DNA of 64,000 nt from Streptomyces catenulae (GTDB taxonomy: Bacteria > Actinomycetota > Actinomycetes > Streptomycetales > Streptomycetaceae), in contig NZ_JODY01000002.1 in NCBI RefSeq assembly GCF_000718015.1, positions 434,001 to 498,000 of the forward strand, written 5' to 3'. Numbering within the stretch: the first letter of the stretch is position 1; each line of letters opens with the position of its first letter. The position numbers were made by a program, and so were the translations under genes. This document shows, piece by piece, positions 1 to 49,419 of the stretch. The notes under the pieces are model-generated. The model saw nothing but the letters and a program-made list of their open reading frames with translations, had not been told where the DNA came from and did no database searches.

Positions 1-3000
1 TGGCGTCCCGCTCCTGCGGGGTGGCCGCCACCTCGTCCAGCGCCTCCCTGGCCTGCTGGAGCAGCCGACGCGGTCCGCGCAGCGTGGTGTGGTGGAACGG
101 GTCCGCCGTGATGACGCCGTGCTCCCGCAGGTAGGCGTAGAACTTGCGGGGCCCGGCCAGGGCCCGCATCCGCTCGTACGGCCGCCGGGTGCCGTCCGTC
201 AGGTCGGCGCGGAGCTGTGCCACGTACTCCGTGACCGCCTCCCGCGGCGGGGCGATCAGGTCGTCCCCGTCGAGGTGGCGCCACCATGTCCGCAGTCCCG
301 ACGCGACCTGCTGCTGGCTGCTCCAGGTCACGATGTCGCCGAGGAAGTCCGCGACCAGGCGGACCTCGTCGGAGCCCCTGCCGTGGACCGTCTCCAGGTC
401 GAGGAGGAGCACCCGCACGCCGGCGGGCCAGCCGGAGAGGTCGAGGGTCCGGGCGATGGAGACGGGCCCCTCGTCGGCGCCGGTCCGCTGGTCCGGGGTG
501 ACGGTCAGGATCTGGTTGAGGTCCAGATCCAGGCCCATGCCCAGGTCCAGGCCCATGGTCGGGTCCAGGTCTTCCTGGCCGTCGTGCATCCCGAGGAACG
601 CGTCCAGCTCCGGGTCGACCGCCGGGAAGGAGACCGGCTGGTGGTCCGTGACCGTGTAGAGGAATGTGTCGAGTCCGGGGTCGAGCGCGTCGAAGAGTTC
701 GGCGCCGACCGTCTCCTGGTGCCGTCCGGGGGCGGTGTGCGGCTCGGTCGGCCACTGTGCCAGCACCGTGTCCAGCTGCTCCCGCAGCGCGGCCGCCCGC
801 TCGTCGGACACCCCGTGCGGCGCCGCCCCGTCCAGTTCCTGGCGGTAGGCGAGCGCACGGTCGATCCACTCCGACCACGTCGACCGGTCGCCGAGCGGGG
901 CGCTGCCGCCGCCCGATGCGGCCTCCAGCACCTGCACCGTCGTCTCCACTCCGCCCACCCAGGTGGTGTCGGTGTCCTCGGGCGGGTGCCCGGTGAGCAA
1001 CTCCGGGTGGGTGGCGAGGTGTTCGTAGAAGAGGGCGGCGTAGGCCCGCCGGATCACCCGCATCCTCTTGGCGCCACCGTCGGACGTGGCCTGGTGGGCG
1101 GCGAGGTAGGCGTCGAACTGCCGGTCCAGCATCGGCCGGTGCGCCGTGGTCAAGGGTCCCGCCTGCGGGTCGCGGCCACGGAGGTAGTTGCGCCACGCCT
1201 GGAACGCCCGGGCGCGCAACCCACGCTCGGGGTGGGTCAGCGCCTCCCCGCCCAGCCAGCCGCGGACGGCGGCGGCCAGTTCGGGTTCGTTCTCCCGGTC
1301 GAGCTGGGTGAGGAGCTGCGCCGCCTCACCGCTCCACTGCGCGGGGTCCACCACGGCGGACGTGTTCCAGCGCGGTGTGCTCCGGATACCGGCGGTGGGC
1401 CCCTGGAGGGTGTCGTCGGCGCGCAGCCGGGCCAGCGCGGCGTCGATCGCCCGGCTGTACTCGGCCCGCATGCTCACCAGGAACCGTTCGGCGGTCCGCG
1501 CCTCCCACAGGTCGCGGCGGAACTGCTCGCCCACGGCGATCCGGACGTCCCGGAGGTTGGTCCGGGTCAGGTTCCGTGTCCGGAACGGCAGGTATGCGGT
1601 GCCGGGCGCGTGGAGGAAGCTGCCCAGGTAGCTGAACCACTTGTTCCAGGCGGCCCATCCGTCGCGCTGCCGCGGCAGCTGCGACGAGGTGGCCGGGACC
1701 TGATCGGGCGTGGTGCCCGGGGTGTCCAGCCGCCGCATCTGGGCGAGCAGCCGGTCGCGGAGGGCGGGATCGGCGTCCGCGAGGTACACCTCGTCGTCGG
1801 CGGCGGCGAGCAGGCGCCAGCCCTCGTCGAGCCGGGCGCGGGTGACCGGTCCCTCGTGGGCCTCGGCCCAGGTGAGGAACGCCTCCGCCTCATCGGCGCC
1901 GGGCTCCTCGACCCACGAGCCGTCCCCCTCGTCCTCGTCGAGGACCAGGCTCCGGCCCCCGTCGAATCCGTCGTCCTCCGGCATGACCAGGGGGCTCGGC
2001 GGGGCCGGCTCGGTGAACTCCTCGAAGGTGGTGAGGGCGGGCTCGTCGAGGCTCGTCCCCGACGGGTCGAGCAGGGTGGGGTTGTCCCGCAGGTACTCGT
2101 AGAAGTACTGGGCGGCCCGGACCCGGTGCCGCTCACGGACCTCCTGCCAGTTGCCGTGTTCGTCCTGCCGCGCCCCCCACCTCCGCTGCTGTCGCACGGC
2201 GGAGCGGAAGACCATGTCGTCCTGGGGCGGAACGACCCGCGCCATCGTCCGCGGCACCTCCGGTCCCAGGTGGGTCAGCCAGTCGCGGATGCCGAGGGCG
2301 ATCCGCGCCGCGGCGGGGAGCGTGGCCACCCGGCCGAACCAGACCGCGAGCGCGGCGGCCAGCTCCGGGTCGCTCACCCGTCGCGCGTCGACCAGGTCGT
2401 ACATGGTGCGCGACCAGCTCTGCGGCTGCTGCCTGGGCAGGACGAGCCGCTGGGCGGAGTGCAGCACCCGCAGGATCTGCGCGCCGGTCTCGGCGCCGGT
2501 CAGGTGGAGCGGCGTCTGGTTCCACACGAACCGCGTGGCGGGCACGGTGGGGACCGGCGGCGGGGTGCCGCCGCCGGAGCCGGACTCCGTGCGGCGCGTC
2601 ACCGCGTTGCCGCCGGGCCGGGGGCGGCGTTCCGTGCGGCGCGGCTCCCGGTGGCGGACGGTGCCGGACTCCGGCGGGTCCGTGGGCCGGGCGAGTTCGG
2701 CGGGCCAGCCGAGCTGTCCCGAGCGCAGGACGTCCAACTGGCCGGAGTCGCGCAGGTAGTCGTGGAGGCTCTGCGCGATGTCGACCAGGGTGTCCGGGCT
2801 CCAGGCGGCGGCCGTGGCCAGGGTGGGTTCGACGTCGAGGAAGCGTACGTCGCGCCGGAACGCGTCGTCGCTCCGCGGGTCCAGGAGGTGCTGTCCGTCC
2901 GCCGTGAACAGCTCGGGCCGCTGCTCCCGCAGGCTCTCCAGATGGCCGAGCCAGGTCCGGATCCCGGGCTCCCGCGTCTGCAGGTTCCGCTTGCCGAGGA

Positions 3001-6000
3001 CGGCGTAGTGGTGCAGATAGCCGGTGAGCGCACGCGCGATGGCCGGGTTGGGGTGCGTCGAGACCATCGGGAAGACGGACTGCGGCCAGGTGCTCGGGCA
3101 CGTCGGCGGCACCGTCACCGGCGCGTCGCCCACGGGCACGACGGGGCCGAGCTGCGGTACGGGCCGCCGCCGCGCGGATCCCCGCACCTCGATGCCGTGC
3201 TGCTCGTCGCCGTGCCGCTGCTCCTCGTCGTACCGGTCCTCGCCGTACCGCTCTTCGTCGTGCGGGTCCTCGTCGTGCTGTTCCCGGCGGCGGGTCCTGC
3301 GCGGTCCGGAGGTCCCGGTCTCCTGTGTGGTGTCGGACGGGTCGGGGTGGGCCGGGTCGAGGGACATGACGGACTCCTCGTCCGGCACGTACGCCTCGAA
3401 CTCGTAGGTGACGAAACCGTCGTCGCCACCGGTGCTCACGGGGTGCGCCTGCTCGTCCAGCTCCATCGCGTCCGGCGTCCCGGAGATCTCCTGCGTCTCG
3501 TCCGGCCGGGAGGTGTTCTGCCCCGTCACGGTCGGCTCGTCCATCTCGGTGTCGAGCGGGTCGTTCTCCGGGGGGAGGACGGGGCCCGTCTCCTCGGTGA
3601 GGAGCATGGGCCGCCCGCCCCGCGGCAGGGCGCAGGCGAGCGGGCCCGACCGCAGCACCTCCAGCTGACCTGTTCGGATCAGGAAGTCGTGGTACTCCTG
3701 CGCGTAGTTGAGCCGCTTGACCAGCTGTCCGTCGTCGACCGCGGAGTGGGACGGCCTGCCGAGTCGGTAGCGCCGTGCGTAGCTCCGGAAGATGCGGTCG
3801 TCCTCCGGGGCGAGGATCGGCTGCGTCTGCTGGCGTCCCCCGTCCGTGGCGGGCTGGGAGTGCGGTGTCCGCAGTGTGCTCTCCAGGTAGTCGAGCCAGA
3901 TCCGGACCGCGTTGCCCATCTGGCCCCGGGAGTTCTTGAGCCGGGGCGTGTCGTCGATGTACGCGGCGATCGTGGCGGCGACGGCCGGGTTGGGGTGCCG
4001 CGACACCATCCGGAAGAGCTCCTTCGGCCAGTCTTCCGGGTAACTCTGCGGCAGCGTCACGTGGTCGGACCCGGTGGCGTGGTCGGACCCGGTGGCGTGG
4101 CCGGGGCCCGTCGGCTGTGTCGGTTCGTCCAGTTCCATCGCCTCGGGCGTCCCGGGCGGTTGCTGCCTCTCCTCGCCCTCGGACGGGGTGGGCTCCGGTG
4201 CGGGGGTGACCGGCGGAGCCTCCCGCACGGTGTCGAGCGGCTCCGTGCGGGGCTGCAACGTACGGCGGTCCAGCGGGGGGCAGGAGACCGGACCCGACCA
4301 CAACGCCGCCAGCTGACCGGACTCCCACAGGTAGGTGTGGAACAGCTGCGCGAAGTTGATCCGCCGCGTCACCTGCGGGGTGCCCAACGGGAAGCCGGTG
4401 AGCTCGCCGTCCCGGTAGAACGTCGCGAAATTCGCGAACCGGCTGTCGTTCTCCGGGGCCAGGATCTCCTGCCTCTGCCGGTACGCCTCGCTCCTCCCCA
4501 CGTAGTCGAGCCAGGTCCGGATCGCGGTCACCATGACGCCCCGGGCGCCCATCCCGACCGTCGTGTTCTGCAAGAAGTCGCTGATCGCCCTGGCGACGGC
4601 CGGGTTGGGGTGCGTGTCGATCAGCTGGAAGGCGGTCAGCGGCCACCCTTCCAGAGCGTTCCCCGCCTCCGTCTGCGGCGCCGGGTGCCCCTCTTCGGTC
4701 GTCGTCCCGGTCGTCTCCTGCTCCTCCAGGGACGTCGAAGTGGTGTCCGTCGCGGTGGTGGGGTCCGTCGTGGTGGTGGGGTCCGTCGTGGTGGTGGGGT
4801 CCGTCGTGGTGGTCTCGTTCATCAGCGACGCGATGTTCATCACCGAACTCGCCGTCGACGGCTCCGTCACCGGCTCCTCGTTCATGAGCGACGAGATGTG
4901 CATCGCCGAGGACGGGGTGGAGAGCTGCGTCCCGGACGTGGGCCCGTCACCGAACAGGTCCAGGCCGCCCGGCCCACGGAAGGAGGACGGCCGCGGGGGC
5001 TGCTCCTGCGGTGTGACGTTCTCCCGGACCCGCTGCGTCATGTGCCGTCCCGCGGAGCCTCCGGGCTGCGGGAGGCGCAGGGAGCCGACGCTCTCGAACG
5101 GGCAGCCCTGGGGCCACTCCCGTTCCAGCGAACGGTAGAAGGAACGGAGCAGCCCCAGGCGGCGCAGCACCCCGGAGGTCAGTTCGGGCGCGCACCGGCG
5201 CTCGATGTAGGCGCGCACAAGGGCGGGCGACGGGTCCAGCAAGCTCTGCCCGTTGCGCTGTGTCTCCCGCCACCACAGGTCGAACTCGGCGGCACACCGG
5301 TGGTGGTTGTCCCCGTGGTACCGATTGATCCAGTTCCGCAGGGGATCCGCCAACGCCGCGTCCGGCCCGCCGCTGTCGCGGAGCGCGGCGATCAGACCCT
5401 CGACGTAGTGCCTGCCCGTCGCGCTCCGGAACTCCGCTCCCCCGCGGAAGTCCGCGAGGTCCCGGTCCAGATAGGCACGTGGGTCCTGCGAAACGCTGCC
5501 GGGCGCTTCGACCCGGAAGGCGCCGAGCATGCTGTCGGCGCGGGACGAGCGGGACGAGGAGCCGCCGCCCGACCCGGAGGCCATGTACGGGCGGGCCTGC
5601 CACTGGCGCCTGCGGCTACCCCGGCTGGGCGCGCCGCCCGACACCCGGGCGAGGCGCTGCGCCTCGGTGCCGATCCAGGAGACGGCGCCCGCCTGCCGGT
5701 CCTGCGGCAGGCGCCGCACGGAGGCGGCCCGCTCCAGGTCGGAGAGGCGGCGGGCGGTCTCCACGGCCGCCTGTCGGCCGTACCGGAACAGCGCGTCCGC
5801 GACCTCCCCCAGCGCCTCGGTGGTGGCGGTGCGGCGCAGTTGGGCCTCGGCGTCGGTGCCGATCACCATCGGCCAGCGGAGGAAACCGGACGCCAGCCGG
5901 AGGCGCGCCACGGCGACCTCCTCCGTCAGCAGCGACTCGATCAGTTCCGCCGGGTCCCGGAGCACCGGGCCGCCGGGGGTTTCCCGGATCAGGTCCAGCA

Positions 6001-9000
6001 GGCCCTGCGGGACCGTCCGCAGCTCCTCGGCGAGGGCCAGCAGCGGTCCGGTCTCCACGAGGCCCAGGTCGTCGGCGAGTTGCTGGAGGGCTTCGGCGTC
6101 GTACCAGGGCGCGTTCTGCGCCGCCAGCCGATGCTCGCGCCACTCCTGGACCGCCTGGGCGGCCAGGTCACCGGCGTGGGCGAAGTACTCCCACAGGGCC
6201 CGGCGTTCGGCGCGCCCCGCGGATTCGTAGTCGGTCACCCCGGTCAGCGAGCCGATACCGGACGTGGTCGCGAGGTGGTTGCCCAGGGACGCCAGGTCCC
6301 CGAGGCGCAGATGGTGGGTGTCGAGCGTCGTCAGAAGCCCCCGCAGAGAGCGGGACTCACGGTCATGGCCGGAGGAGTCCCTCAGGTCGACGCCGAGGCG
6401 CTCCCAGTGGGCTTGGGCCACCTCCTCGTGCCAGGTACGGGCGGAGCCGCCTGCGGAGAGGTGGTCCAGCAGGGAGGTGCGCAGCCCGCGCAGCAGATGG
6501 TGTTCGTCGGCACCGAGGCCGAACAGCTGGGCGAGGTCGTACAGCACCGGCGCCAGCGCCGCGGGCACATGCACCGCGCGGACCAGGGCGTCGACCTCCT
6601 CCCGGGGCAGCCGCCCGTGCTCGCGGACGAAGGCGTCCACCCAGTCACGCTCGTCGGCGGCGTCGATGCTCCGGGCGTACGTCTCGATGTCCTCGGGGGT
6701 GAAGCCCAGCTCGGCCAGTGCCTGGAGCTGCACCTCGTCGGCGGCGCGCCGCTGGGACTCCTGGAGGGTCGCCTCGACGCGCGCCTCCGCCAACCGGACG
6801 CGTGCCTCCGCCAACCGGCGGGAGAACCGGCCCAGATACTCCTGCGGGAGCTGGCCCCGCCGTTCGGCGACCCAGCCGATCAGCGCGCGGAACGCCCCGG
6901 CGGGCCCGCGGTCGACCGGGTACAGCTCCTGGACGCCGAGGCCTTCGGACAGTGCCAGCTGACCGAAGGTGCCGTCCAGGGCGCCCAGGACGGCCGGGAA
7001 GCCCTCGGTCCGGCGCAACTGCGTGACGGTCCGGCCGTAGGGCAGGCCCGTCCGCTGCCACTCCTCGGCGGTCTCCAGCAGGTGCAGTACGTGCGACGGG
7101 GCCAGCCAGGTGCTCGTGCTGTCCCAGGTCCGGGCGGACAGGTCGGCGGGGCCGATCACCGCCGGGTCGGTGAGGAGCCGGTAGAACCAGGCGCGGTCCT
7201 CTGCGGAGACGCCGAGGGTGTCGGCGGCGTCCCCGAGGATCAGCTCCACATGGTCCTGCTCGCGGAGCCCGAACGTCTCCCGGAAGTGGTCGGCCGCCGC
7301 CGTCACATCGGAGACCAGGTCCGGCTGGAGCGTCCAGTGGAACTGCTGCCGGGCCTGGGCGGCGGCCCCCGCGCGGATCAGCGCGGCGGCGACCTGCCGG
7401 ACCGGCCGTCCGGGCCAGAGCTGCCGGTCGTTGAGCGGCCGGAAGATCTCCCGCAGCCGACGGGCGTCGGCGAGCAGCGGCAGGACGTCCAGCCGGACCG
7501 GGAACCGCTTGAGTACGCGGTAGAGGTCCCGGGGGGTGACGCCCCACTGTTCGGCGTAGCGGGCCAGCCTCCCGTAGGAGGGGATCTCGCCCGTGGTCCG
7601 GGCGAGGCGGGCCAGGTTCGCCATCCGCCGGACGCCCAGCCGCTGCCGGAGGTCGTCGAGGCGGACCATTTCCTCGGGGGTGAAGGTGTCCACCAGGTCG
7701 GCGTGGCGGTCGCGGACCTCCTGGATGCGGTTGTCGTCCAGGTACGGGGGCGCCTCCTCGCCGTCGGCCACGAGGTAGGCGGGCGGCTCGGTGGGCTCCG
7801 GCACGGGGGACGGTTCGGTCGGTGTCCGCCGCTCGGTGGTGGCGTTCGTCCCGGTGACCGGCTGCTGGGTCTCCGGTGTCCGCTGCTGGGCGGTGGCTTC
7901 CTCTCGCGCCTCCAGCCAGCGGAGGGTCGTCTCGTGCAGGCTCTGCGGTGTCGTGCCGCTCCCGTAGGTCGTGTTCCGCAGGTGCCGACCCAGTTCCCGG
8001 AGGATCGCGGGGTCGGTCCGCAGCGTCCGGTCCGGGCGGGTGCTCAGTGCACGGTGGATCGCGTCGTAGTGGTCGGCGGCGGACGGACCGCTGCCGAGCA
8101 CCTCGCGGAGCGAGGTGTCCAGTCCGCGCAGGAAGACGTTGACGCGCTGGTAGCGGACGGAGCCGAGCAGTTGCGACCCCGGTGCGCCGCCGCCCGCCTC
8201 GGTCCCCCGCATCAGCGACGGCAGGTGCTCCACCAGGCGGGCCAGTGCCACATGGCCCGCCGTTCCGCGCAGCCCGAGGCCGTCGAACTGGCCGTTCATC
8301 AGGCGCACCCACCGGTCCGGCGGCGTCCAGCTGGGACTCTCCAACTGACCTTCGCTCCGGCGGAGGACGTACAGCTGCCGCACCTCCTGGCCGAAGAGGT
8401 GGTGCAGGTCCAGCGGGTCCATGCCGAGGGCGCGGGCGGCCGCGTACACGGTGGAGCGCAGCGCGTCGTCGGGGAAGAAGCGGCGGCCGAACGCCCTGTC
8501 GGTCTCGTCCGGTCCGCTGCGACCGGTCAGCCAGTCCGTCACGACCGACGCCCGCTCCTCCGCCGTCAGCTGCCGCAGCTCCTCCGGCGTCCGCCCGTCG
8601 GCGCGCGCATGGCGCAGGAAGTCCAGCAGGTCGGCCAGGGTGAGGCGGAGACCGCGGTCGGCGAACCAGCCGAGGTCGGTGGGGTGCAGGCCCAGCAGGT
8701 CGAGCCGGGCGCGCAGCCGGTACTCGCCGAGGTCGGCGCGGGAGCGCGGTGCGGCGTCGCCCAGCCAGGTCAGCTCGTCGGTGAGCACGGCGAGCGCGTC
8801 ATGGCTGATCCCGAGCGTGCGGGCGAGGTCGGTGAGTTCGGCGGGGAGCGCGCCCGTGTCGAGGACGAGGAAGAGAGAGGCGGGCGGCAGGTGCGCGTGG
8901 TCGACGGCGCGGCGGACGAGTGCGCTGATGCGGTCCTCGTCCGGCGTGCCGCGCAGGGCGCGGTCCAGCACCCGGGCGCCGTCGGTGCCGAGCGGCAGGG

Positions 9001-12000
9001 TGCCGTGCCCGTCCAGCCCCTGCCGCCAACCGGCCAGCAGAGGGTGGAACCGGTCGGCTTCGGACGGCTGTGTGGTCGCGACGGTCCGTACGGATTCCGT
9101 GAAGCGGTGGAACACCTCGTGCGGCAGTCCGTTCCCCCACTCCGCGAGATCGCTGAACCAGGACAGGTCCCGCAGGGTCAGGCCGTGGCTCTTCAGATGG
9201 GCGACGAGCGCCGCGGCGGTCCGTGCCGCGCCCCGGGTCTCCAGCAGGGCGAGGACGGAGTCCTGGTCGAAGTAGGAGAGCGCCCCCGGGTGCCCCCGGT
9301 CCCCCGCCACCCGCAGCAGACTCGACAACTCCACGGTCCACAGGGCCCACCGGGTGGCACTCCCGGAACCCAGCGTCCGGCCCCCGAAGCGCCCGGAGCC
9401 CGTAACGACCTCGTCCTCCTGCCCACCACGCCGCTCACCGACGACCTGATCCTGCGGCTCGTCCACCTCGTGGACGGGCAGTTCGTCGGTCGGTTCGTGG
9501 GTCGGTTCGTCGGTCGGTTCGTGGGTCAGATCGTGGGTCAGATCGTCGATCGGTTCCTCGGTCAGGTCCCCGGCCAGGTCCTCGGTCAGCTCATGCTGCT
9601 CGTCGGTGAGTTGGTCGTGCTGGCCCTCGGCCTCGTGGACGGGCAGTTCGTCGATCAGCTCGTCGGTCAGTTCCTCGGCCGACTCGTACAGCAGTTCCTC
9701 GGAGAGTTCGTCGCTCAGCTCGTCGGAGAGTTCGTCGGCCGACTCCTCGACCGACTCCTCGGCCGATTCGTCAACCGGCTCCTCGATCAGTTCCTGGACC
9801 GGCTCCTCGACCGGCTGGTCGATCAGCTCCTCGACCGGCTGGCCGTCGTCGTGCGGCTCTTCCCCGGTGTGGGGGGCCGGGTCCGTCTGCGGTGCGGGAG
9901 GGGTGGGGGCGGTGAGCGGTACGGGCACCAGATCCGTGGGGACCGATGCCGTCTCGTGGGCGTACAGGACGAGTGTGTTGGCCTCGCGGACGGCGGCCAT
10001 CAGGCCCTCGGTCAGCAGGGCGCGCGCGACCCGGTCCCGTGCGGTGTCGTCCAGCCTCTGACGGCCCAGGACCTGGTACGTATTCATCAGCCAGTCCGCC
10101 AGGGCGCGCCGGGTGGTGATGCCCGCGGGACCGGTGAGGTCCCACAGCAGGTCGGCCGGGGCCTGCCGCAGCTGTGCGGCGATCCGCCGGAGGTGGCTCG
10201 GCACCCCCTGAAGCTGCTCGGCCAGCGCCAGCACGTCGGTCGGGGACAGCCGGGCGGCCGTGGGACCCTCCTCGGTGCCGTGCACCACCGCCACCAGGTG
10301 GCGGGCGTCGAACCAGGTCTGCCCGTGCTCCTGCCACAGCGCCTCGTACCGCGCCCGGTCGATGCCGAGCTGTGCGGCGCTCCAGGTGACCGCCAGATCC
10401 TCGGGGATCCGGCTCCAGACCTGGTGCCGCAGGGGGCTGTCCAGCGCGTCGTACCCCGTGGCCGCGAGCGGGCCGCCCGCCGTCGCGGCCAGGTACCGGC
10501 CCAGCTCCGGGAGGTCGGCCAGGTCCGCACCGGCCGTCTCCATCACCCTCAGGAGCTGGTGGAGCTGCTGGAACCTCCGCACCCGCTCCTGCTGTTGTTC
10601 CTCCGCGGACAGCTCCGCCGGCATGGGCGCCTCGGTGTCCACCCCGTGCTCCACGAACAGCGGCAGGATCTCGTTCACGACCAGGTCGCCGAGTTCCCTG
10701 CCGTTCCGGTGCGCTGCCAGAAAGGTGTCACGCAGCGGCCGCATCAGCCCGTAGTCCTCCGGTTGGAGGCCGAAGCTGAAGGCCGTCCGCAGCAGGCCGA
10801 CGGCGACCGTCGGCGGGATCTGCAGCACCGCGGCGAGGTGGTGCAGCTCCCGGAGCGGGAAGCCCCCTGTCCACATGGCGAGTTCCAGCAGGGTCCGCAG
10901 CTCCTGGATACCGGCGCGGTAGGTGCCCCCGCCGGTGTCGAGCCCGCGGAGGTAGTGCACGATCTCCGGGATCTGTACGCCGCTCTCCCCCAGCGCGGCG
11001 TAGGCGTCCGCCGTCAGGGTCAGCTGGTACTGGAGCCAGACGGCGAGGCCCTGCGTCACGTCCTGCTCGTCCGGCTGCGGCAGCGGCGTCCCGTCCTCGG
11101 CCCGCGCCGTCAGCGGGAAGCGGAACTGCTCCGACGACGACAGCTCGTGTTCCTGCGCCATCGTGTCCAGGTACTCCGCGGCCTCCTCGATGTCCATGTC
11201 CGCCAGGTTCGCCAGGCTGTTGCCGCCGGTGAGGGTGTCGGGTTCGGCGCGGGCGGCCCAGCGGAGCAGGGTGAGCAGGCCGCCGGGGAGGATCCGGCCC
11301 TCGCGGCGGGAGACCGCGGACAGCCGCTCCTCGTCCAGCGAGCCGACGGCCTCGGCGAGGCGGTAGAAGGCGGCCCGGGTACGCGCGTCCACGGCGCCGC
11401 CCAGGAACATCGCGTCCTGGAGGTGCTGGTCGATACCGGCTCCCCAGAGCCGGAAGCTCTCCATGAAGTGGGTGTGCGCCACCGACTCCTCGATCTGCTC
11501 CGCGTAGGCGACGGCCCGCTGGAGACCCTGGGTGATTCCGGCGGGGGTCGGCTGCACCGCGTGGTAGTGGTGGAGGACCGCGCCCCCGCGTCCGTACTCC
11601 GACAGCAGGTCGTCGAAGGCGTGGAGGGCCGCCTCGAAGTCACCGGCCCGGCGCAGCGTCTCGAAGCCGCTCCGCCGCCACTGGTTTCCGCCGCGTTGGG
11701 GGGAGACGGCCCAGAGCAGGGCCGTCAGCGTCTGGGAGGGCGCGTACCACTCGCCGTCCCACCGCTCCTCCGCGCGGACCGGCCCGGCCACCGCGGGGTC
11801 GCTCAGGAAGTGGTAGAGCCAGGCGCGGTCGGCGGCCGAGTACGCCCCGGCCGCGGCCAGCGCCTGCTCCAGGAGGTGCTGGACGCCCGGATCGGCGGGC
11901 AGCGCGAACCGTCGCAGGAAGGCGGCCCGGGCCATCGGCTCGTGCCCGCCCGCCGGCTCCTGGCCGCGGCCCCAGCCGGGCCAGAGCGACCAGTGCACGG

Positions 12001-15000
12001 ACGGATCGGGGTGCGCCGGGTCGTGGACCGGTGCGGGCGGATCGAGGTCACCGCCCGGGCCGGTCCCGGACGGTTCCGTGTACGTCGGCGGCGGTACGTC
12101 GTCGTGGAGCTCCGGGGGCCGCCGGTCGGAGTCGTACCGTTCCGGCGGGTCGTAGGGCGGCGGGGCGGTGTCCGGGCCCCGGTATCCGGCGGCCCACTGC
12201 CGTACCAGGTGGGCGAGCGGCTGGGCGAGGAGCCAGCTGAGGGTGAGTCCCCTGCGGTACGGGGGGCGCCACAGCGCGGTCACCCAGTCCACCGGCGGGG
12301 TCTGCTCACGTGCCGTCAGGAAGAGGTGGTCGGCGAGGTCGGCGAGGGCCTGCGGTGTGCTGCGCAGGGCCGGGCGTTCGTGGAGTCCCGCGAAGACCGA
12401 CGCCATGATGCGGGCCCAGGGCCGGGATTCGCGCAGCGCCTCAAGGGAGAGGTGCGGGGGCAGCCAGTTGCTGTCGCTCGTGATCCGGTCGTCCGTGGGC
12501 CGGAAGGACCGGACGAAGATCTCCGCCGCGCGGTACGCGGCCGTGCCCGGGTACCACCCGGCGTCGGCCCCGGGCGGCGGCGGGTTCCCGACGCCGTGGG
12601 TGAAGAGCTCCTGGTGGCTGCCGACGAAATGGAGGAACGCGGCGCGGTCGGCCGGACCGCGCAGCCCGATGCCGTGCAGGCGGCCCTGGAACGCGTCGAG
12701 CACCTCCTGTGTCGGCAGCCAGCCCTCGACCGCCCCCGATTCCTGCCGCCGGTGGTGGACCGACTCCAGGTCCGGGCGGAAGAGCTGCACGAGGTCGACG
12801 ACGTCGATGCCGAGCGCCTCGGCGAGATGCGCCGCGGTGTCGGGCAGACCGTTCGGGACCGGCCCGCCGTGGGCCAGCACGGTCCGCGCCAGAAGCACCC
12901 GCTGCTGGTGGCGCCGCACCGCCCGGGGGTCGGCTTCGGGCGGGGGCACCTGCCCGGTCCGCAGCGCCTCGGCGGTCCGGGCGGCCAGCGCCGTGTGCTC
13001 CTCCGCCGCCCTGGCCGCCTCGGTGGCCTCGGCCCGCTGCCACGCCCTGACGTGCTCCTGAACCGCTTCGGGGCTGCCGTCGCGCAGGGCACTGACGGAG
13101 GTACCGGCCTGTTCCAGATGCCGCCGGAACGCCGCGAGGTCGGACAGGGAGAGGCCCTGCAGCCCCGCGAACCAGCCGAGGTCCCGGGGCTCGAACCCGA
13201 CCATCGCCAACCGGTTGATCAGCGTGATCGCGGGGATCAGGACCTGCTCACCGGCCGACAGGTCACCGGCCCAGGAGATGAGGTCGGAGACGGGGAACAG
13301 CTGCTCCGGGGTGAGGTCCAGCCGCCGCAGCATCCGCCGGTACCGCTGCGGCGACAGACCGAGGCGGACCGGCAGCCACTCGATCGCGTCCGGCATCCGC
13401 CGGTGCTCCGTCAGGAAGCGGAGCAGCATCGCCATGGTCCCGGTCGTGGTGATCCGGTACTCGTGGGCCAGGTGCAGCAGGTCGGAGCCGTCGACCGTGT
13501 GCGGCAGACCCTCCCAATCGTCGATCAGACGGGCGACCGCGTACGGTACGCGCAACTCGTCGGCGAGGAGCCAGTAGTTCTCCTGGACCGTGAGTTGAGC
13601 CGTGAGTGCGGCGGGGCGGCCCACCTCGCCCTGGCCGTTCCCCTCCTCGTCCTCCTCCGGGATCGTGGGCAGCGGACGCCGCTCGCCGCCGGGCGGCGTT
13701 CCCCCGCCGGGCGGACCCGGCTCGGAGGCGCCGTCGCTGAGGAAGAACGGCTGGTACCGGTCGTCGCCGCCGAGCGCGCGCCAGGTGTCCAGCGCCGACC
13801 GCTGTGCGGCGGGCGCGTCCGTGGGGAAGTGCCGCATCGCGCCCGTGAGCATGAGGTGGTCGGCGAAGCTCTGCACCGAACCGGACGTCGGCTCGGCACC
13901 GGGCGGGACCGGCGTCCAGCTGAGCTGTTCCGTCCGGGCCACCCGCAGCAACGCCCGTCGCTGTGCGGGCGTTTCCGCGCCGAGGGCGGCGAAGTCGCGG
14001 CGGAGGGTGTTCACGAACTCGTGGTGGGCGCGGGCCGGACGGAAGCGGGACGGCGGCACGGAGCCGCCCAGGGCGCGCAGCTGCTCCGGGAAGAGGTATG
14101 CGAGGTCGCGCGGGTCGGCTTCGAGGTCGCGGGCGGCGCGGTAGAGGTCCTTGACGTCGGACATGCCGAGGCTACGGGCCAGCTCCGGGATGTCGGACGG
14201 GAGCCGCCCGATGCGGTGGCTGAGGGCGATCAGACGGCTGATGTCGCGGACGCCCAGTTCGGTGGCGAGCGCGTGGAGCCGCTCCGGGTCGGCCCAGGCG
14301 TTCTCCATCAGGTCCCGGACCGCGCGGGGCGTCATCTCCAGGCGGGCGGCCCAGTCCTGGATCTCCCATGCGGTCAGCGCCCGGGGCCGGGGGACGGCGC
14401 TCTCGGTGGCGTACGCGGGCAGGGGGTCCCGCAGGGCCCTGTTGCGGTGGTCGAGGAGGAGTTCGTCGAGACGGCTGGGGTGCATCGCCCGCAGATGTGC
14501 CGCCAGGCGCGAGGACGGGAGACGGTCCGTGTCGGCGACGTACCGCAGGAAGGCGCGCATCGTGCCGTGCTGGATACGGTTGTCGCTGCTGTGGATCATG
14601 GGGTCGGAGTCGGGCCACGCCATCGACTCGCGGGCGGCGAGCGCGAGCAGCCAGGCGGCGTCGGAGCCCCCGTTGCCGCGTACGGACGCGCCGTAGCGCC
14701 GCATGTGCCGCTCGATCCCGACGATGAACTCCGCCGGGGCGCGGAGCAGATTCTCGGAGTTGACGGCGCGCAGCGAGTGCGGGAAGGCCGATGCCAGGTG
14801 CCGGGGGTCGATGCCGGTGTCGCGGGCGATGCGGTACAGGTCCTTGACGACGGGCATCCCCAGCTCACGGGCGAGCTGCGGGAGGTCCGACGGGATCCGG
14901 CCGAGGGTTTCGGAGAGGTCCGCGAGGTGTGCCATGTTCCGTACGCCCAGCTCCCGGGCGAGCGGGACCAGCAGCTCCGGCCGGAACCAGGAGTACGCGG

Positions 15001-18000: not shown

Positions 18001-21000
18001 GGCGTACGACATGGACCTCGACGCCGTGGACGAAGGCGAAGAGCTGCGGCGCCAGGAAGAAGTCGTCGAACTCGTTCTCGTCGGGGCCACCGCTGCGCAG
18101 CGGGCTGTCGGACGGGCGCTTCAGCTGGAGGGCGAGGAGCTTGACGCGGGCGGAGTGCGGGAGACCGACGTTGCCGTGGAGCGTGCCGTCCTGGAGGAAC
18201 TCCTTCTCGTGCGGCGGGGTCAGCCGGATGCCGCCCGCCGGGAGCCTCTTCTCGGAGGTGCTCAGCAAGATCCCGGCCGATTCGAGTTCGTCCTGGGTGA
18301 AGCGGTCGCGTCCCGGGTCGATCTGGAGCCAGGTGTTGCCGGTGGAGCCCGGGGCGCCGAGCCAGGAGTCGTGGTTCTCGCCGTCCCGGAGCAGCCGGTC
18401 GGCGAGCGCCTCGCGGAGCGCCCGGGCGATCTCCTGCGGGGTACCGGTGTGCGGCGCCGTGGCCAGCGGGGTGCCGGTCGCCGCCAGCGCGCTCAGTGCG
18501 CTGTTCAGCGCGAGGAACAGGCCCTCGCCCCGGGTCCGTTCCGGGTGCTCGGTGTCGTGCGGGTCGAGGACGTCGTGGACGGTGCCGTCGTCGCCGACGT
18601 AGGTGGTGGGGTCGTCGTCCCCGCCCCCCGCCCCCCCGGCGGTGAACTGCACGGGGGTGTCGAACGCCGCCAGCTCCTCGACGGCGAGGCGTGCGTCCTC
18701 GCCGAGGTCCTTGACGAGCGGCGGCTCGGGGAACGCCGAGGGCTGGAGCGACCGGGCGAACTCCAGGGCCTGCCGCTCCTGCCGGACGGTGCGCTCCAGC
18801 TGTTCCACGGCCGCCAGATGCTCCCGCACCCGCGCGAGCGCCTCCGCGGCGTGCGGACCGCCCGCGGCCTTCTCCAACGCGTCGCGGGCGACGTCCAGCC
18901 GGGCCCGCAGCTCCGCGAGGCGGCCGTCGAGGTCGGTGAGGCGGACCAGACCGCCCTTGCGCAGCTCCTCGGCGTACTCGGTGAGCAGCGCGGCGTCCTC
19001 GTCGCCCCGGGCGGCGGCCGCCCGGATCTTCGCCAGTTCGGCGTCGATCGCCTCCCGGATCTGCCGGGCGGCGGTCAGCGCCCGCTCGTGGGCCCGGCGG
19101 AGGTAGGCGTCCTCCCCCGCGCGCAGCACACCCTGGCGCCGCGCGGACTCCTCGTCGAGCGCGTCCGCGGTGTCGAGCGGTTCGGCCGCCTTCTCCTCCA
19201 GCACCAGGGCGAGCGCCTGGGCCATGAGCTTCTCGCGGAGTTCGGCGTGGGCGGGCGGCACCGCGCCGCCGGTCCAGATACCGCCCTGCGACTCGGCCTG
19301 CGCCACCAGTTCGTGGACGGCGGGGTCCGTGAACAGGTCGTCGACGGGCGGGGCGGGCGGCCGGGGCGTGGTGGCGTCCTCGACGGCCACCACCGGCCGC
19401 CGGGTGGTCTTCTCCTCCTTGTCGTAGGTGTACGCGGTGGGCTTGCCCTCGGCGTCCGGGTTCCCGGCGTTGCGCTCGTGCCACTCCCGCAGCGCGTCGG
19501 CGCTGACCCGGGCCCGGTGGAGTTCGGTGCGCAGCCGCGCCAGCTCGGCGCGGAGACCGGCACGTTCGATCTCGTGGTCGACGAGGCGGCGCAGCGCCGA
19601 GCGGTAGGACCCGGCCGTGACGTCGTCCTGCGAAGTGGTGGACGTGCCGTCGGCGGTGCGCCGTCCGCGCTCGCGGAGCGCCTCGTACAGCTCCTCGTAG
19701 CGCTTCTCGATCCGGACCTCGGCCTCCTGGTACTCCTTCTCCGTCTCGACCAGCTTCTCCCGCAGGTCCTTGACGTGGTCGTACGCCGTACCGACGGCTT
19801 CGGGGAAGGTCGTGTCGTCGAGGAGTCCGGCTTCGCGCAGCACCCACTCGGGGACCAGCGCCAGCACGCCGTCGTCGGAGGAGAAGGTGGTGCGGGCGGA
19901 GCCCTCCAGGGTCTCGATGTGGTCGCGCAGCAGCGCGGCTTCCTCGTCGGGACCGGCGGTGGCCAGCTTCTGCTTGAGGCGGTCCACGGTGCGCTGCAGC
20001 GCGGTCGACGCGGGCAGATAGGGCGCCATGGCGGCCTTGAGGGCGGCGGCGCCGGACTTGAGGCCGTGCTTGACGACGGTGGCGCCGACGAGGAAGTCCA
20101 GCGGGACCTCCACCAGGAACCGGCGTTCCGCCTTGGGGGCCACCACGGAGTTCACGGAGTTGGCGAAGGCGCTCTGCGAGGTGGCGACGTCGCTGCCCTG
20201 GAAGGCGGGCGGGGTGGCGCGGTGGGAGAGGTTGCCCGCGTCGTTCACGGTGTACGAGGGGACGGCACCGGCGCTGAAGCTGGACGCCGCGGTGTACCCC
20301 TCGGCGTGCTGGAACGTCTGGGTGATCCGCTGGTCCTTGGTGACCGTCGCCTCGTCGAGGACGCCGAGGATCCGCGGCCGGTCGCTCTTCGCCCGGGCGT
20401 GGACGGTGACCGTGGCGCGCGAGGAGCCGGACCAGGAGCTGTCCTCGACGGCGGGCTGCCGCCATCCCGCACCGAGCGCCTCGGAGATCATCTCGCGCAG
20501 CGCCCGGGAGGTGTTCTGCAGGTTGAGCTGGCGTGCCGCGCCGGTGCCGGGCCTGGTCAGGCTGCTGCCGCCGACGGCGCGGCGCCGTGCGGGCGGGGTC
20601 CCGGGGGTCTGCTTCTTCCCCGACGTGGTCAAGGTGGTGGTCTTCCCGGCGGCGGCGTCGACCGCGGCGGTGACCTGACGGAGCAGTTCCTGCGCGCCGT
20701 GGGCGTCGAGGAAGACGGTGTGCTCGTGCGCCAGGACGTCGGTCAGGGCGCTGTTCCGCTGCCGCCAAATATTGGGCGCGGCCGGTTCGTTGGGCGGCTG
20801 TGGCGTCGGCTGCGGGGTCGGTCCCTGCGTCAGCTGCCCGTCCTGCGGGGTGGGCTGCGGGTCCGTCTGCTGCTGGTCCGTCTGCTTCGGCCGGGTGACG
20901 GCGGGCTTGAGCAGCGTCTCGGGGTGTCCCTGGATCAGGGAACCGGCGTCCTCGGAGACCTGGACGACCTTGCCGGAGTCGTCGATGTGGGTCAGCTCGA

Positions 21001-24000
21001 TGCGGTAGCCGACGAGGTAGTCGACGTAGGGACCGCCGAAGGTGAGCGTCCCGGTCTTGCTGACCGCGTCGGTGCGGGTCACCGACCGGGTCGTGGTGGC
21101 GGTGACGTTCGCGCTGACCGGGAGGCCGACGCCGACGGCACCGGGCTGCCGCTTGCCCTCGGGGGTGTTGGGGTGGGTGGCCGGGGTCTGGGTGCTGGTC
21201 AGCCCCAGGCTGACCGCCTCGGACCGGGAGAGCGCCTGCGAGCTGGTGTAGGAGACGGCGCGGTCCTCGTCGACCGAGACGTTGTAGAGGGTCGTCAGAT
21301 ACTCCGGGGTGCCCTCCTGGATCAGCCGCAGCCAGACGCCGCCGGTGAGCGGGATGCCCTCGCGGACCAGCTGGTAGTGGAGACCGCCGTTGAGGGCGTC
21401 GGGGGTCAGCAGGGTGTTCAGCTCGGTGCGCAGCGCGGCGCGGCGGCCCATGCCGTCCGCCGGGAGCACCGACTTCGCCTTGCCCTCCAGCGCCTTCACG
21501 AACGACTCGACCACCGGCCCGGTGTCCAGCGCGCCGCGTACGGAGACGAACGAGGGCAGCTGCCGCGGCGCCTCCCACTGGGAGCGGTGCGACAGCGTGC
21601 CCAGGCCGTTGGCGACCCAGCCCAGGCTGCGGGCGTCGTCCAGGGTGAAGACGGAGGTGTGGTCACCGGCGACCGTGACGGCGCCGGAGAGACCGGACCC
21701 GCCCCCGCCGACCCGCAGGGACTTCAGCTGCGCGCTGACCGCCCAGGTGATCGCCTCGTAGCCGACCATCGCCATCCGGCCGGTACGCGCCTCGGTGAAG
21801 GTGACGCCGACGGAGAGGGAGTGCGAGGTGGTGTGGGTGTTGCTGCGGTTGTAGAGCGTCCACACCACGCCCCAGCTCTGCGACTCCTGGGTCGCCCCCG
21901 GCTCACCGGCGTGGAAGGCGGTGCTGCCGGTCACCTGGCCCTGGATGTTGAGGGTGCGGGTCTCCGAGATGCCGGTGCCGACGCTCAGCGCGCTCGGGAT
22001 GGCGTGGCTGGCGGAGAGGTTGGTGTCGACAATGTCGCGGACCACCGGGCCCAGCGGGTAGGCGTTGAGCTGGAGCCGCGTCTCGAAGCGGAAGGCGCGG
22101 CCGCGGTGGTGCAGCATGTCGAGGGTGCGGCCGCCGTGCACCGCGGAGTCGAACTGCGCCTCCATCTGCTCGACGAAGGCCATCAGGTCGCCGTACTCCT
22201 GCGAAGCGCGGTAGGTGAGCCGGTCGTTGAGGTGCGTCGAGACGGCGCTGAGCACCTCCTTGGTGAGCGCGGCGATGTACGGGCCGTGGCCGTTGCGGAC
22301 GTGGGCGTGGAAGGCGTTGACATGGGAGCGGGACGGCCGCGCGTGGTCGACCAGCGCCTTGGCCGCCGGGGCGGTCCACTTGGTGACGCCGTTCTCCGGG
22401 GTGTGCAGGGTGTTGCGGGCGATCTCCAGCGCGGTGGGCCGGTGCGGGGTGGGCGCGGTGGTCGGGTGCGGGGGCGCGCCGGGCGGCGGGGTGGGCCCGG
22501 CGAGCGGGCTCGGTGCGCGGTAGGGCTGACGCAGGTTGTGCGGCATCAGCGAGTCCGGCTGGAAGATCAGGACACGGACCTTGCCGATGAGCCTGCCCTC
22601 GTTGTCCCGGCCCAGTTCGATCTGGTGCGGGGCGATGTCGAAGAGTCCGTCGGCGAGGGTGCGGAGCAGTTTCCGGGTCGTCCCGTGGTGCTCGGCGTCG
22701 AGGTGCAGCACGCCGACGGCTTCGTAGGCGTGTGAGCCCTTGCCGGTGCTGAGGGAGTACTCGGTGCCGGTCTCCAGTCCGGTCTCGGACTTGCGGCTGG
22801 TGCTGCCGCCGTAGGTGGCGGAGAAGCCACCCATCACGAGGTTCGTGAGGGCGACCGGCTTGACCCCGGCGTCGGCGGTGGCGCCGATGTGCCAGTTGGT
22901 CTGCGTCTCGGTGGACTGGCCGAGGGTGCGGGCGCCGGAGGTGCTGCCGGAGGAGGTGACGTCCCGCCAGAGCCCGGCGTAGGAGAGCCGGTCGAGGGTG
23001 AGGCTCATCGCCACGGAGACGCCTTCGTGGCGGAAGAGACCGGAGCGGCGGAGCACGACCATCGGGCCGGACGTCTCGACGGTCAGGTCGTCGAGCGGCT
23101 GGAGCGCGCGCCGGATGAGCTTGGCGCCCTGGGTCTCGACGCTCGTCGCGCCGTGGTGGCGGAGGAACGACTGGTCGTTGGCGAGCGCGCGGCGCTGCCG
23201 GGAGTTGGGCTTCGGGTACGCGGTCGGGCCGGTGCTGATACCCAGGCGCTTGGCGAAGGCACGGACGGTGTGCTTGGCGACGAAGCCGGGGTGGAACTTC
23301 CGGTTGCCCGGCCCGGGCTCCGCCGGGAGCATCTGCCTGACGTGCCGCTTGTCGTTGTTGACCAGCGCCCGGCGGGCGGCCTCCCGCAGCTGGCGGGCGA
23401 GCGGGCGCGGGTCGCTGGGCGTCGTCGCGGTGACCGGCAGTTCGGAGTTCTGGGAGGGCTGGGTTTCCGGCTCCGAGAAGCTGCCGGACTCCGGAGGCGT
23501 CTGCTCCTCCTCTTCCGGCACGGGGAACAGCCGCCGCCCGGTCGGGGTGGTCGGGGAGCCGGGCGGGGTGCCGGGGATCCGGGACGTGCCGGAGCTGTTG
23601 GCCGTGTCGACCAGGGAGTCGGGACGCCGCCTGCGGAGGAACTTCGAGGTGGCCCCCGGGGAGCCGGTCGCGGGCACGGACACGGTCCGCCGCATCGGCT
23701 GCCGCTTCCCCTGCATTGCACCGCCGGCGCGGCGGCTTCCGAAGGCCAGCACCGACGCGGCGCGCTGCGACAGCGGACGCGGCGACGGGCGCCGCGGGGG
23801 CCGGGACTCGACGGTGGGGGCGTTGATCCGGATGTAGTTGTACGAGCTGAGCAGCAGCTTGAGGTGGTCGGCCAGCTCCTGCGGATCCTGCGGCGGGACG
23901 AAGTCCGGTACGTGCAGGTCGTTGGGGCTGTCCTTGCCGGTCATACCGGGCAGGGCCAGCGGGTCGCGCTGCTTGATCACCCGGTTGGGGTCCAGGTCCG

Positions 24001-27000
24001 CCCATTCGCGGGCGGAGTCCATGGGGGTGCGCAGGACGGTGTGGGCCACGAAGCTCTGCTGGAGCGGCGGTTGGTTCCCGGTCCGCAGCTCCTTCGGGGT
24101 GTCCAGCTGGCTCAGCTCGTAGCCGGGCCGGAACCTGACGTTGATCCTCAGCTGGTACGCGTAGAGCCCCTGGGCCGACTTGTCGGAGAGGCCGATCTGC
24201 ACCTGTCCCTTGCCGGAGGAGGTCATCGTCCGGCTGGTCGCCGCGCCGAGCTGGGTGTTCAGTCCGGCCTGGGCCCGGGCGGGGCCGTTGTACGCCGGGC
24301 CGCCGGAGAGGTTGACGGTGAGGCTGTTGTTGATCGTGTTGCTGTGGTCGTCGCCGACGGCGGTGTTCTTCTGGACCTTGGTCTCGCTCTCCTGCGCCGC
24401 GATCGTCTTGACGAGGGTGGCGTCCACGGAGCGGACGATGTCGATGCTGTAGGTGAACACCCCGATGGTGTTCTGCTGGTTGTCGACGACCTTGATCTGC
24501 TGGATGTCGCCGCGGATGGCGGGGACCAGGTTCTCGTGCAGGGTGAAGGTGGAGAACCGGTGCAGGATCTCCGCCATCCCCGGCATCTCGGGCGTCATCT
24601 GGCCGTGCACGGTGGCGACCTGGACCGCCCAGTCCGGCAACTCCTGGGAGACGACGAGGTGGTCGGCGGAGACCAGGTCGGGGAAGACGCCCTGCGGCAG
24701 GGTCAGGGACTTGGGCAGACCGGTCGGGGCGACCGGCGGCTTCGCCGTCAGGGAGTCCGGGACCCGCCAGGACCAGCCGCTGTCGACGGCGATGCGCACG
24801 GGGGCGGCGCCGGTCGGCCGCCGCTCACCGCGCGCGTTCAGGGTGTACGTCCGGCCCTCGTACAGCACATGGTTGACATAGGTGTGCGACGGGCCTTCGG
24901 AGCCGACGGTGCGGGTGTCGGTCGAGGTGACCGAGTGCGCGGTGGTGTGTGTCGCCTGGTTGATGTTGCCGGTGGCGGCGACGGTGATCATGCCGGTGGC
25001 GACGCTGGGCATCATCACACCGGTGTTGATGCCGATGGCGTGGCTGGACGCCTGGACGTGCGAGGTGGCGTCCTTCTGGTTGCTGCGCTGCCCGCCCTTC
25101 ACCTTGACGGTGACGGCGTCCTCGTAGCGGGAGTACGTACCGTGGTTGAGGGCGCTGAGGGCGAACAGGCCCCGACCGCCGGTGACGGTCTCGTAGAGGA
25201 CGAACGCGCCGTTGCCCAGGGAGGTCGGCAGCTGTCCGGCGCCGCTCTCCGGGTGGGGCAGCAGGGTGTGCGGGCGGTGGACGAGCAGCGTGAGGATGTC
25301 CTCGCGCAGCTTCGCGCGGGCGCTCCGGGCGACGTCCGTGACGCTGTTGGCGAGCCGGTCGGCGACCTTCCCGGCCTCCCGCAGCTCGATCTCGGTGCCG
25401 CCGACCAGCGACGCGTGCTCCTCCAGGGCGGTGCCGTCCTCGAAGGTGGTCCGGGAGCCCTTCCGGTAGACCTTGCTGACGTCGGTGGGCGCCAGGTCGA
25501 AGAAGACCGGGCGGTCGTTGTCGCGGTCGTGGATGTCGAGGATCTGCTCCTCGACGGGTGTCGTGGAGAGCTTGCCGTCCTCGTCGCGGGGGGCGAAGAC
25601 GACCTCGCGCTGGAGGGCCTGGAGCAGGTCCTTGTGGTGGGCGATCTGCTGCGCCTGCCAGGCGTCCACCCCGGAGGTGCTGACGGGGTGGCGCAGCAGA
25701 TCCTGCTCCAGGAGGTAATTCTGCAGCTCCTGCCCCGAGGAGACGTGCGCCAGCCACTCCTTCAGCTCGTCGGCGGTCAGCGCGTCGGGGCGCACCACCT
25801 TGGCCTTGGCCTTGTCCTTGTCCGCGGTCTTGTCTGCGGCCGTGGCCTTGTCTGCGGCCTTGTCCGTGGCCGTGGCCTTGCCCTTGTCCTTGGACTCGGT
25901 GGGGGGCGTGGCCGCGGGCTGGTTCCCGGACCCGCTCGCGGCGGCCGGGTACCACGTGCCGCCGAGCGGTTCCGGCACCGGGCGGCCCTGCTCCCGGTAG
26001 AGCCGGGCGCGCTCGGCCTCCAGCGCCAGGATCTTCCGCTGGATACGCCGGATCCGGTCGCGTTCGTCGTCCGCCGCGTTCTGCTCCGTCGTGGCCGGGG
26101 TGGTCGGCGGCACCGGCGGGGTCTGCCCGAGCTGCCCGCCCTGGGGGGCCGGGGGGTGCTGCTCGTCCTGGTTCCGGTTCTCCTGGCTCTCCTGGTTCTC
26201 GGTGGGCCGGGTGTCCTGCTGGGCTCCGTTCGTCGGTGCCTGCTGGACGAGGTGCTGGTCCCGCACCTCGCGCCGCAAGGGCTGCGCCACCGGCGGCTGC
26301 GGGACGAAGTCCCGGGAGGTGAGGGCCTGTTGGACGGCGGCGGGGTCGGGCATGAGGTCGGGGAACCAGTCCACGTCCTCGTCGCCGCCGTCCCGCATCC
26401 CGCGCAGCGTCTCGTCCAGGTGGAGGAGGCGGCCGTCGGCGTCCAGGTCGATCGAGGTGAAGAGCGTTCCGTCGGTCTGCCCCGGGAGCGGGGTGCCGTC
26501 GTCGGCGTACACCCAGACGGTCCGGCCGTCCTCCGGTGCCTTCAGCGCCCGGCCGGTCCGGGGGTCGAGCCAGAGCAGTGTGCCGTGGTCGTTGACCGCG
26601 TGCAGCCGGACGGTGGTGGCGCCGTCCGTGCTGCCGAAGACGTAGGAGACATTGCCGTGCCCGGCCGTACCGGACGACGTCAGCGCCTTCCTGACCCCGG
26701 CGACGGCCGCCTCGGACCCCCACCACCGCTGCTCACCACGGGCGTGCCGCATCCGCCGGGCGGCACGTTCGCGGTCGATGGACGAGGAGGTGGCGACGGA
26801 GCTTTCCGAGGACGTGTCGTCGTCCGCCGCCATCCACTTCCGCTGCCGGACCGTGGCGGTCGTGGGCTCGTACGAGGTGCCCTGGCCGGGCGGGTCCTGA
26901 CGCTGGAGCATCCGCAGCCGCCGGTCCAGCTCCTCCTCGACGCTCTCCTGGTGCGGAGGCGTGTCCGTGCCCGGCGTCTCCTCCTCCGCACCGGCGGGCT

Positions 27001-32239: not shown

Positions 32240-32596
32240 CTAGTGCTTCTCCGTGCCCTTCTCCTCGCCCTGGGTGTCCATGGCCTTCCACGCCTGGACC
32301 AGCTCCTCGCTGTCCCGCTTGGCCGCGTCGAAGATCTTCATGATGTTCTCCCCGGACTGACCGGTGGAGTCGGTGAGGTCGGACATCAGCTTGACCACCG
32401 CCTCCAGGGCGTGGGTGCCGGGCCCGGCGTTGTCCATGTACTGGTCGTGGACCTCGTCGTCGCGCCCGGCGCCCTCGGTGTTGAGGCGGTTGATCTCCGC
32501 CACGTCCGCGTTGAGCGCCTTGATGGACTCGGCGAGGTGCGGGTACTCGCCGAACAGCCGCTTCAGATCGTCGGTGGTCCGGATCTCCTCAGCCAT
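32240..32596 (-). CDS. Small helical T7SS-locus protein
   Basis: 118 residues, almost all helix (Met-Ala-Glu-Glu-Ile start, Glu/Lys-rich end). I do not recognise a named family. Its size and two long helices are like WXG100-type partners or small T7SS accessory proteins. ATG at 32596 overlaps the end of the upstream gene by eight bases (ATGGCTGA), so translation is probably coupled. The giant gene begins 171 bases downstream; the gap is G-rich and holds an imperfect hairpin. Confidence 0.85.
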   Translation of the reverse strand: MAEEIRTTDDLKRLFGEYPHLAESIKALNADVAEINRLNTEGAGRDDEVHDQYMDNAGPGTHALEAVVKLMSDLTDSTGQSGENIMKIFDAAKRDSEELVQAWKAMDTQGEEKGTEKH

Positions 32597-49407: not shown

Positions 49408-49412
49408 CGCCG

Positions 49413-49419
49413 CTCCCCC
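49413..49419 (-). promoter_or_regulatory. Ribosome binding site deciding the TTG start of the beta-helix/AAA+ gene
   Basis: GGGGGAG on the minus strand, five bases before TTG 49407. The upstream open frame to 49620 has Pro/Arg-rich, non-coding-looking residues. Confidence 0.65.

Follow-up and report, generated by a model that had tools for sequence, protein, structure and literature searches.

A 13,994-residue protein encoded beside T7SS genes in Streptomyces catenulae is probably a self-processing multi-effector toxin

The window analysed here, a 64,000-nucleotide stretch of Streptomyces catenulae DNA corresponding to positions G000:C2:434001-498000 of the strain's assembly, carries on its minus strand a frame devoid of stop codons from position 32137 to the left window edge. 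An earlier note on this DNA had claimed that the frame stays open from the GTG at 32068 to that edge, encoding at least 10,689 residues. This was borne out, and extension beyond the edge, a check that the note had proposed, found the frame open to window coordinate -9916 (G000:C2:424084), 9,916 bases further on. Counted from the GTG, the gene is ~42,000 bases (42 kb) in size and encodes a protein whose actual length is 13,994 residues (1.52 MDa, pI 5.4, 15 cysteines). Since this GTG is preceded at ribosome-binding distance by AGAAAGGGG, the protein most likely begins there, the upstream opening of the frame at 32137 being the poorer start. The gene and its upstream neighbors are as follows.

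1..32068, continuing left to -9916, minus strand: giant gene, residues 1-10,689 of 13,994 (open frame, composition)
31661..32020, minus strand: WXG100_2 domain, residues 17-136, a T7SS-type head in which F-x-G replaces W-x-G (PF25547; alignment of five sequences)
32240..32635, minus strand: small protein of 131 aa, helical by eye; ten of the 20 named loci have it upstream of their giant
32589..33032, minus strand: YbaB/EbfC-like protein (PF02575, E 2.1e-10), candidate export chaperone on the analogy of EspL
33070..35196, minus strand: Gly/Pro-rich protein of 708 aa, no Pfam match
35352..35870, minus strand: protein of 172 aa kept in part of the giant loci, no Pfam match
36167..36727, minus strand: WXG100 protein (PF06013, E 2.7e-7)
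36899..38371, minus strand: EccB, T7SS core (PF05108, E 4.4e-88)
38423..39871, minus strand: EccD, T7SS core (PF19053, E 1.7e-85; PF08817, E 4.8e-19)
39927..44054, plus strand: EccC, FtsK/SpoIIIE-type T7SS ATPase (PF01580 in three stretches, E 5.7e-91)
44570..46063, minus strand: S8 subtilase, candidate mycosin (MycP; PF00082, E 4e-28)

Third-codon-position GC was 0.92-0.96 in all full 3-kb blocks of the 42 kb. The plus strand opposite the gene is itself open for 7,577 codons (2..22735), a frame that is accounted for by codon usage, TTA and CTA being absent and TCA present only five times among the 13,994 sense codons; the domain matches described below all lie on the minus strand. That a bias in third-codon GC alone makes long open frames commoner, antisense ones included, would fit an unexported or silent gene whose frame is open but whose protein is not fully made or not secreted. 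We consider this reading very improbable, as no stop was observed in 13,994 codons against 177 (by codon position) or 206 (overall) expected from base composition, and as the nearest named relative, Streptomyces pinistramenti SF28 (71% identity in the best segment), carries a mostly collinear open frame of 15,090 codons, which supports the frame being real. When the window protein was cut into overlapping pieces of 500 residues, these matched the S. pinistramenti frame at 29-71% identity; those starting at residues 9001, 9251 and 9501 found no match in it, and a piece covering 10930-11048 matched out of order. A dN/dS estimate against this relative was discarded because differences at the three codon positions (0.36, 0.32 and 0.40 over 9,731 codons) were too saturated. 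Judged by its sequence, the 42-kb locus is one intact gene with a single open coding frame.

The head matched PF25547 with an E-value of 1.1e-12 and 48.7 bits (cut-off 27), confirming the WXG100-like start that the earlier note had claimed; its placement of the gene after a WXG100 operon likewise held, the genes upstream including those for EccB, EccD, EccC, an S8 mycosin-type protease and a WXG100 protein. Adjoining these T7SS genes is one for a 1,168-aa protein with right-handed beta-helix repeats and AAA ATPase domains (46114-49620, minus strand), presumably EccA-like. The arrangement of T7SS genes is also kept beside giants in other genomes. Scanning named genomes with an N-terminal alignment of five sequences retrieved 20 loci in Streptomyces and Kitasatospora, including two in S. 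benahoarensis; EccB accompanied 18 of them and a YbaB-like gene 19; the two loci without EccB are truncated at contig ends. Of the 13 giants with at least 4,000 codons that the N-terminal domain detected in a second set of 14 genomes, 12 had EccB within 20 kb, at distances of 4 to 16 kb that were computed from coordinates, without a chance control; these genomes hold one to four EccB genes each. The thirteenth giant begins 1.9 kb away from the end of its contig. About three loci belong to both samples (L092, L099 and L100, the giants of G133, G115 and G127). One N-domain giant (G141_0) is ~40 kb from EccB with another giant frame in between, the G138 giant sits on a contig devoid of EccB, and no EccB gene lies near two giants of the strain itself (G000_b and G000_c), both of which the N-terminal query missed. 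EspL, of the ESX-1 system, is YbaB-like. It is described as stabilizing EspE, EspF and EspH, and a chaperone role has been put forward for it (PMC6319747). The conservation of gene order, from T7SS genes and YbaB-like gene to the giant, points to partners that can be tested.

Domain searches on the whole product, the other check proposed beforehand, were productive at the two ends of the protein, yielding the head and C-terminal domains; for residues ~200-10,700, Pfam and NCBIfam returned nothing except the head. In this otherwise blank part of the chain, the following features were delineated.

17879..25789, minus strand: beta-rich region, residues 2094-4730, putative membrane-delivery segment (structural model covering 2094-2730)
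24920..25069, minus strand: 50-residue stretch free of charged residues (2334-2383), rich in S, T, N and G, candidate membrane hairpin
16829..17572, minus strand: predicted OTU-fold cysteine protease domain, Cys4847 and His5077
15887..16555, minus strand: caspase/CPD-like domain, His5275 and Cys5326 (Foldseek; PF14252 in members)
5669..15151, minus strand: repeat region, helical by eye, residues 5640-8800, common to the giant G000_c
5..5443, minus strand: repeat array, helical by eye, residues 8876-10688, with a further copy at 10928-11070 outside the window

The uncharged stretch is 50 residues long in the window protein, 51 in the S. pinistramenti copy and 52 in that of S. benahoarensis, and is missing from the more distant copy of G023b. 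The model of residues 2094-2730 is of low confidence, and its matches to pore-formers had rmsd values of 10.5-23.5 A and Foldseek TM-scores of ~0.1. The beta-rich region may enter membranes. Whole-chain Pfam scans at E 0.01 and 0.1 revealed no RTX or calcium-binding repeat family. The repeat array, possibly an unusual one for an exported protein, consists of eight copies of ~125-165 residues (window 5-5443, minus strand, and L011:8859-9287). Its first copy resembled the integrase SAM-like domain PF02899 with an E-value of 0.0046, under the family cut-off, and the other seven did not match; an integrase-SAM identity, seen in one copy of eight and below cut-off, was not retained.

The OTU-like and caspase-like domains together span residues 4815-5394. 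The OTU region matched nothing in Pfam; searched as a profile against solved sequences, it gave a short spurious match and no true relative. The 50 structural matches listed by VIA for a model of both domains were taken up by the OTU half, which speaks for its predicted fold, and included no caspase. Foldseek, with no match at E 0.001 or below for this model, placed in its second row the RTX cysteine protease domain 3gcd against the caspase-like half (probability 0.96, E 0.018). PF14252, which we take to be a caspase-like family, was matched in seven of nine members (best E 9.3e-6), the window's own domain reaching only E 0.23; a profile search of solved sequences with the caspase-like domain hit no protease and nothing of the C80 type. 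The caspase profile was rebuilt more strictly after an initial version had drifted and no longer recovered the domain of the window protein. A search of 5.8 billion proteins with the OTU-caspase region found no relatives among 466 scored candidates. In an alignment of 57 caspase-like rows, the catalytic His and Cys were both present in 27 and both absent from 24, the other six being gapped there, and no row had kept only one of the two. The 24 rows devoid of the pair may represent a sister domain. Such joint keeping or loss of catalytic residues provides a simple way of finding live domains where Pfam fails.

Beyond the repeats, the chain carries the following enzyme-like domains near its C-terminal end, left of the window edge.

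Residues 11889-12078, minus strand: metzincin-like metallopeptidase
Residues 12152-13096, minus strand: EndoU-like domains
Residues 13510-13924, minus strand: protein-glutaminase-like Gln deamidase (PF18626, E 1.4e-13)

The metallopeptidase motif HExxHxxxxxD occurred in all 21 covering rows of a 25-row alignment, 18 of which read HExxHxxGxxD; as regards an anthrax-lethal-factor-like type, a metallopeptidase motif is present, this latter form of it and the weak matches being metzincin-like. Both window EndoU-like copies shown in the alignment are devoid of the GVH His that several relatives possess, and a single-sequence search with one EndoU-like copy gave no true relative. Searching the 5.8 billion proteins with the metzincin-EndoU region yielded four relatives (815 candidates scored). 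The deamidase aligned its C-H-D residues with those of protein-glutaminase (E 0.8) and scored 14.4 against the NCBIfam equivalog, whose cut-off is 250. Its triad is intact in four of five copies, including that of the window; in the fifth, Cys and His are changed and Asp is kept. Taken together, and on sequence evidence, the locus combines a WXG100-like head, a T7SS core and YbaB-like genes encoded upstream, and enzyme-like domains with kept catalytic motifs along the chain.

That these folds could be structural or long decayed, and the protein a giant cell-surface or matrix scaffold, would suit the repeat arrays (5640-8800 and 9138-11070) and the EndoU-like copies without their GVH His. We find this improbable, however, given that no row retains the caspase-like His without the Cys or the Cys without the His, that the metzincin motif was found in every covering row, and that whole-chain Pfam scans listed no wall-anchor or adhesin-repeat family.

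A cassette of residues ~13336-13925 is missing from S. pinistramenti, where the flanks meet within nine residues (window 13335 and 13926 corresponding to 14908 and 14917), leaving the window protein ~590 residues longer at this place, the Gln deamidase among them. An exchangeable toxin-like cassette accordingly lies near the C-terminus, present or absent between close relatives. This feature, along with the occurrence of EndoU-type (BECR) nucleases among the bacterial polymorphic toxins covered in PMC3482391, is also what one would expect of an interbacterial polymorphic toxin, in which the chain would serve mainly as stalk or carrier, the variable C-terminal EndoU-like and deamidase domains would hit competing bacteria, and immunity would be encoded nearby. 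Several observations make such a weapon unlikely. Enzyme-like domains are distributed along the chain, and in G000_c and G122 the deamidase lies mid-protein. The next gene 3' of the giant codes for 377 aa, with one stretch that by eye resembles a membrane anchor, and its product matched nothing in Pfam. The OTU fold, finally, suits ubiquitin users, though PMC3482391 treats some OTU-type domains as processing proteases. As to the suggestion that the C-terminal end is perhaps toxic, the EndoU-like and deamidase domains are indeed toxin-like, but domains resembling enzymes occur at several other points of the chain as well as at its tip. Past the giant's 3' end and the 377-aa gene lie polyketide-synthase-type genes and a BTAD-type regulator (G000:C2:407499-422447; L007-L008). 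Three giants of other genomes (G149, G127 and G019; L028, L029-L030 and L031) end, by eye, in a glycosyltransferase-like domain with a GGVYADVDLG motif.

Among 150 genomes of the genus, own genome included, the N-terminal 499 residues were matched in 61, residues 2094-2713 in five, the OTU-like region in nine, the metzincin-EndoU region in 13 and the deamidase region in four. In 29 of the 150 the matched frame spans no fewer than 4,000 codons, the longest reaching 19,630 and 18,430 codons, many of these matches being weak (E up to 8e-4). The first of the two is that of S. griseoviridis JCM 4250 (L092), also in the set of 19 named genomes. The earlier statement that secreted bacterial proteins of this size are few may be true in general; within the genus, such frames recur. 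S. benahoarensis has a long version of at least 11,544 codons, ended by a contig end, and a short one of 4,030 codons which matches window residues 1-1621 and 11258-12869 and, between them, 12863-13210. Effector cassettes appear to have been gained and lost between giants. In G072 (L076-L077), two overlapping frames were seen, one of 2,136 codons that includes a WXG100-like head and another of at least 8,958 codons that lacks it, a split or interrupted giant. The strain's own genome holds at least three further giant frames, measured from stop to stop.

G000:C2:62456-97927 (L058-L060): giant of 11,824 codons sharing modules with the window giant
G000:C3:238285-269913 (L062-L063): giant of 10,543 codons sharing modules with the window giant
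G000:C1:29291-44116 (L042): giant of 4,942 codons matching the window giant's head

The four giants amount to up to 41,300 codons, ~1.8% of the genome. The heads of the 11,824- and 10,543-codon proteins have no Pfam match and display W-x-G by eye (WSGD and WRGD); neither of these two giants has an EccB gene close by.

Exported Gram-positive proteins tend to avoid cysteine. Counted over 25 giant frames, of which three are truncated at fetched ends and from which leaders were trimmed by hand, 151 of 250,524 residues were Cys (0.060%), compared to 118 of 12,021 (0.98%) in 16 neighboring ORFs, which do not constitute an exported control set. Fifty of the 151 fit a motif of a strand followed by Cys with an upstream HG, a motif to which 6.8% of Ser residues (1,002/14,729) conform; 15 fit DGC or DGxC, and 86 fit neither, several of them caspase-like by eye. 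Only three of the 15 cysteines of the window protein (4847, 5326 and 13689) lie in a catalytic motif. Across the family, as far as these sequences tell, cysteines are enriched at catalytic-looking sites, without being confined there, and least so in the window protein. For a putative NCBI name of such proteins, 'lonely Cys domain', neither a match in NCBIfam nor a paper turned up.

The giant is probably exported as a toxin. Of the two roles that the earlier note had considered, T7SS-linked giant effector or surface protein, the effector is the best reading, nothing having emerged in favor of the other. We think it reasonably likely that this single intact gene encodes a T7SS-linked, self-processing multi-effector toxin of 13,994 residues, working in the manner of MARTX without being one. 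In such a scheme, the head and the YbaB-like protein, in the way proposed for EspL in ESX-1, would bring the chain to EccC for export; the beta-rich region (2094-4730), once outside, would enter or cross the target membrane; the caspase/CPD-like domain (His5275/Cys5326), perhaps together with the OTU-fold domain, would cleave the chain and free the effectors; and the metzincin-like (11889-12078), EndoU-like (12152-13096) and Gln deamidase (13510-13924) domains would act in the target. Given an OTU fold and a protein deamidase, a eukaryotic target, such as soil amoebae, seems to fit better than a bacterial one. Counting against this scheme are the Foldseek and profile-search results for the OTU-caspase pair, the low confidence of the beta-region model, the caspase-like rows without the catalytic pair, the EndoU-like copies without their GVH His, a scan of neighboring genes in which no immunity gene was recognized, the absence of EccB near G000_b and G000_c, and the many cysteines outside catalytic motifs. 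If exported whole, the chain, at 1.5 MDa, would be very large for a T7SS cargo, and its passage through EccC and the cell wall would call for an explanation. More tentatively, and with doubt outweighing confidence, Streptomyces T7SS might export megadalton single-chain weapons against eukaryotic predators, each with its own membrane-delivery region, a caspase-like releasing protease and several swappable effectors, as a Gram-positive counterpart of MARTX in which the family's remaining cysteines are enriched at active sites.

MARTX proteins are autoprocessing multi-effector RTX toxins of Gram-negative bacteria. Like them, the window giant carries several effectors on a giant chain, and the second Foldseek row for its CPD-like domain is the V. 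cholerae RTX cysteine protease domain, a match at the level of fold with E 0.018; unlike them, it has no RTX repeat family in Pfam, and it has T7SS genes nearby and a WXG100-like head. CpnT, a WXG100-headed actinobacterial T7SS substrate, bears one C-terminal toxin. CpnT-type substrates have the PF25547 head and T7SS locus in common with the giant, which is far longer and displays several enzyme-like domains instead of a single C-terminal toxin. The Cys-His-Asp motif blocks of the deamidase align with those of protein-glutaminase (PF18626; 2zk9, 2ksv), the window domain being embedded in a chain of ~14,000 residues. The closest precedent lies in Zhang et al. 2012 (PMC3482391), which describes giant multi-toxin actinobacterial proteins such as SACTE_5178 of Streptomyces sp. 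SirexAA-E (13,652 residues). As described there, these proteins and the window giant have in common their presence in Streptomyces, a length of more than 10,000 residues and, on one chain, caspase-like, OTU (recognized in the giant as a predicted fold) and HExxH-type metallopeptidase domains. The window giant, in contrast, has no recognized ADP-ribosyltransferase (ART) or MCF1-SHE domain, in whole-chain Pfam scans that can miss remote members and used no MCF1-SHE profile, but does possess a Gln deamidase together with EndoU-like domains. Its linkage with the T7SS and with a YbaB-like gene was measured, and its likeness to SACTE_5178 is one of description. Since the kind is already described in Zhang et al. 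2012, the window giant is a further member of it; judged on titles and the beginnings of abstracts in the one library searched, no other paper on T7SS-linked giant multi-effector Streptomyces proteins was found. To that description the present analysis adds the domain map of one member, larger relatives, the T7SS and YbaB-like linkage, a clean cassette difference and the joint inheritance of a catalytic pair.
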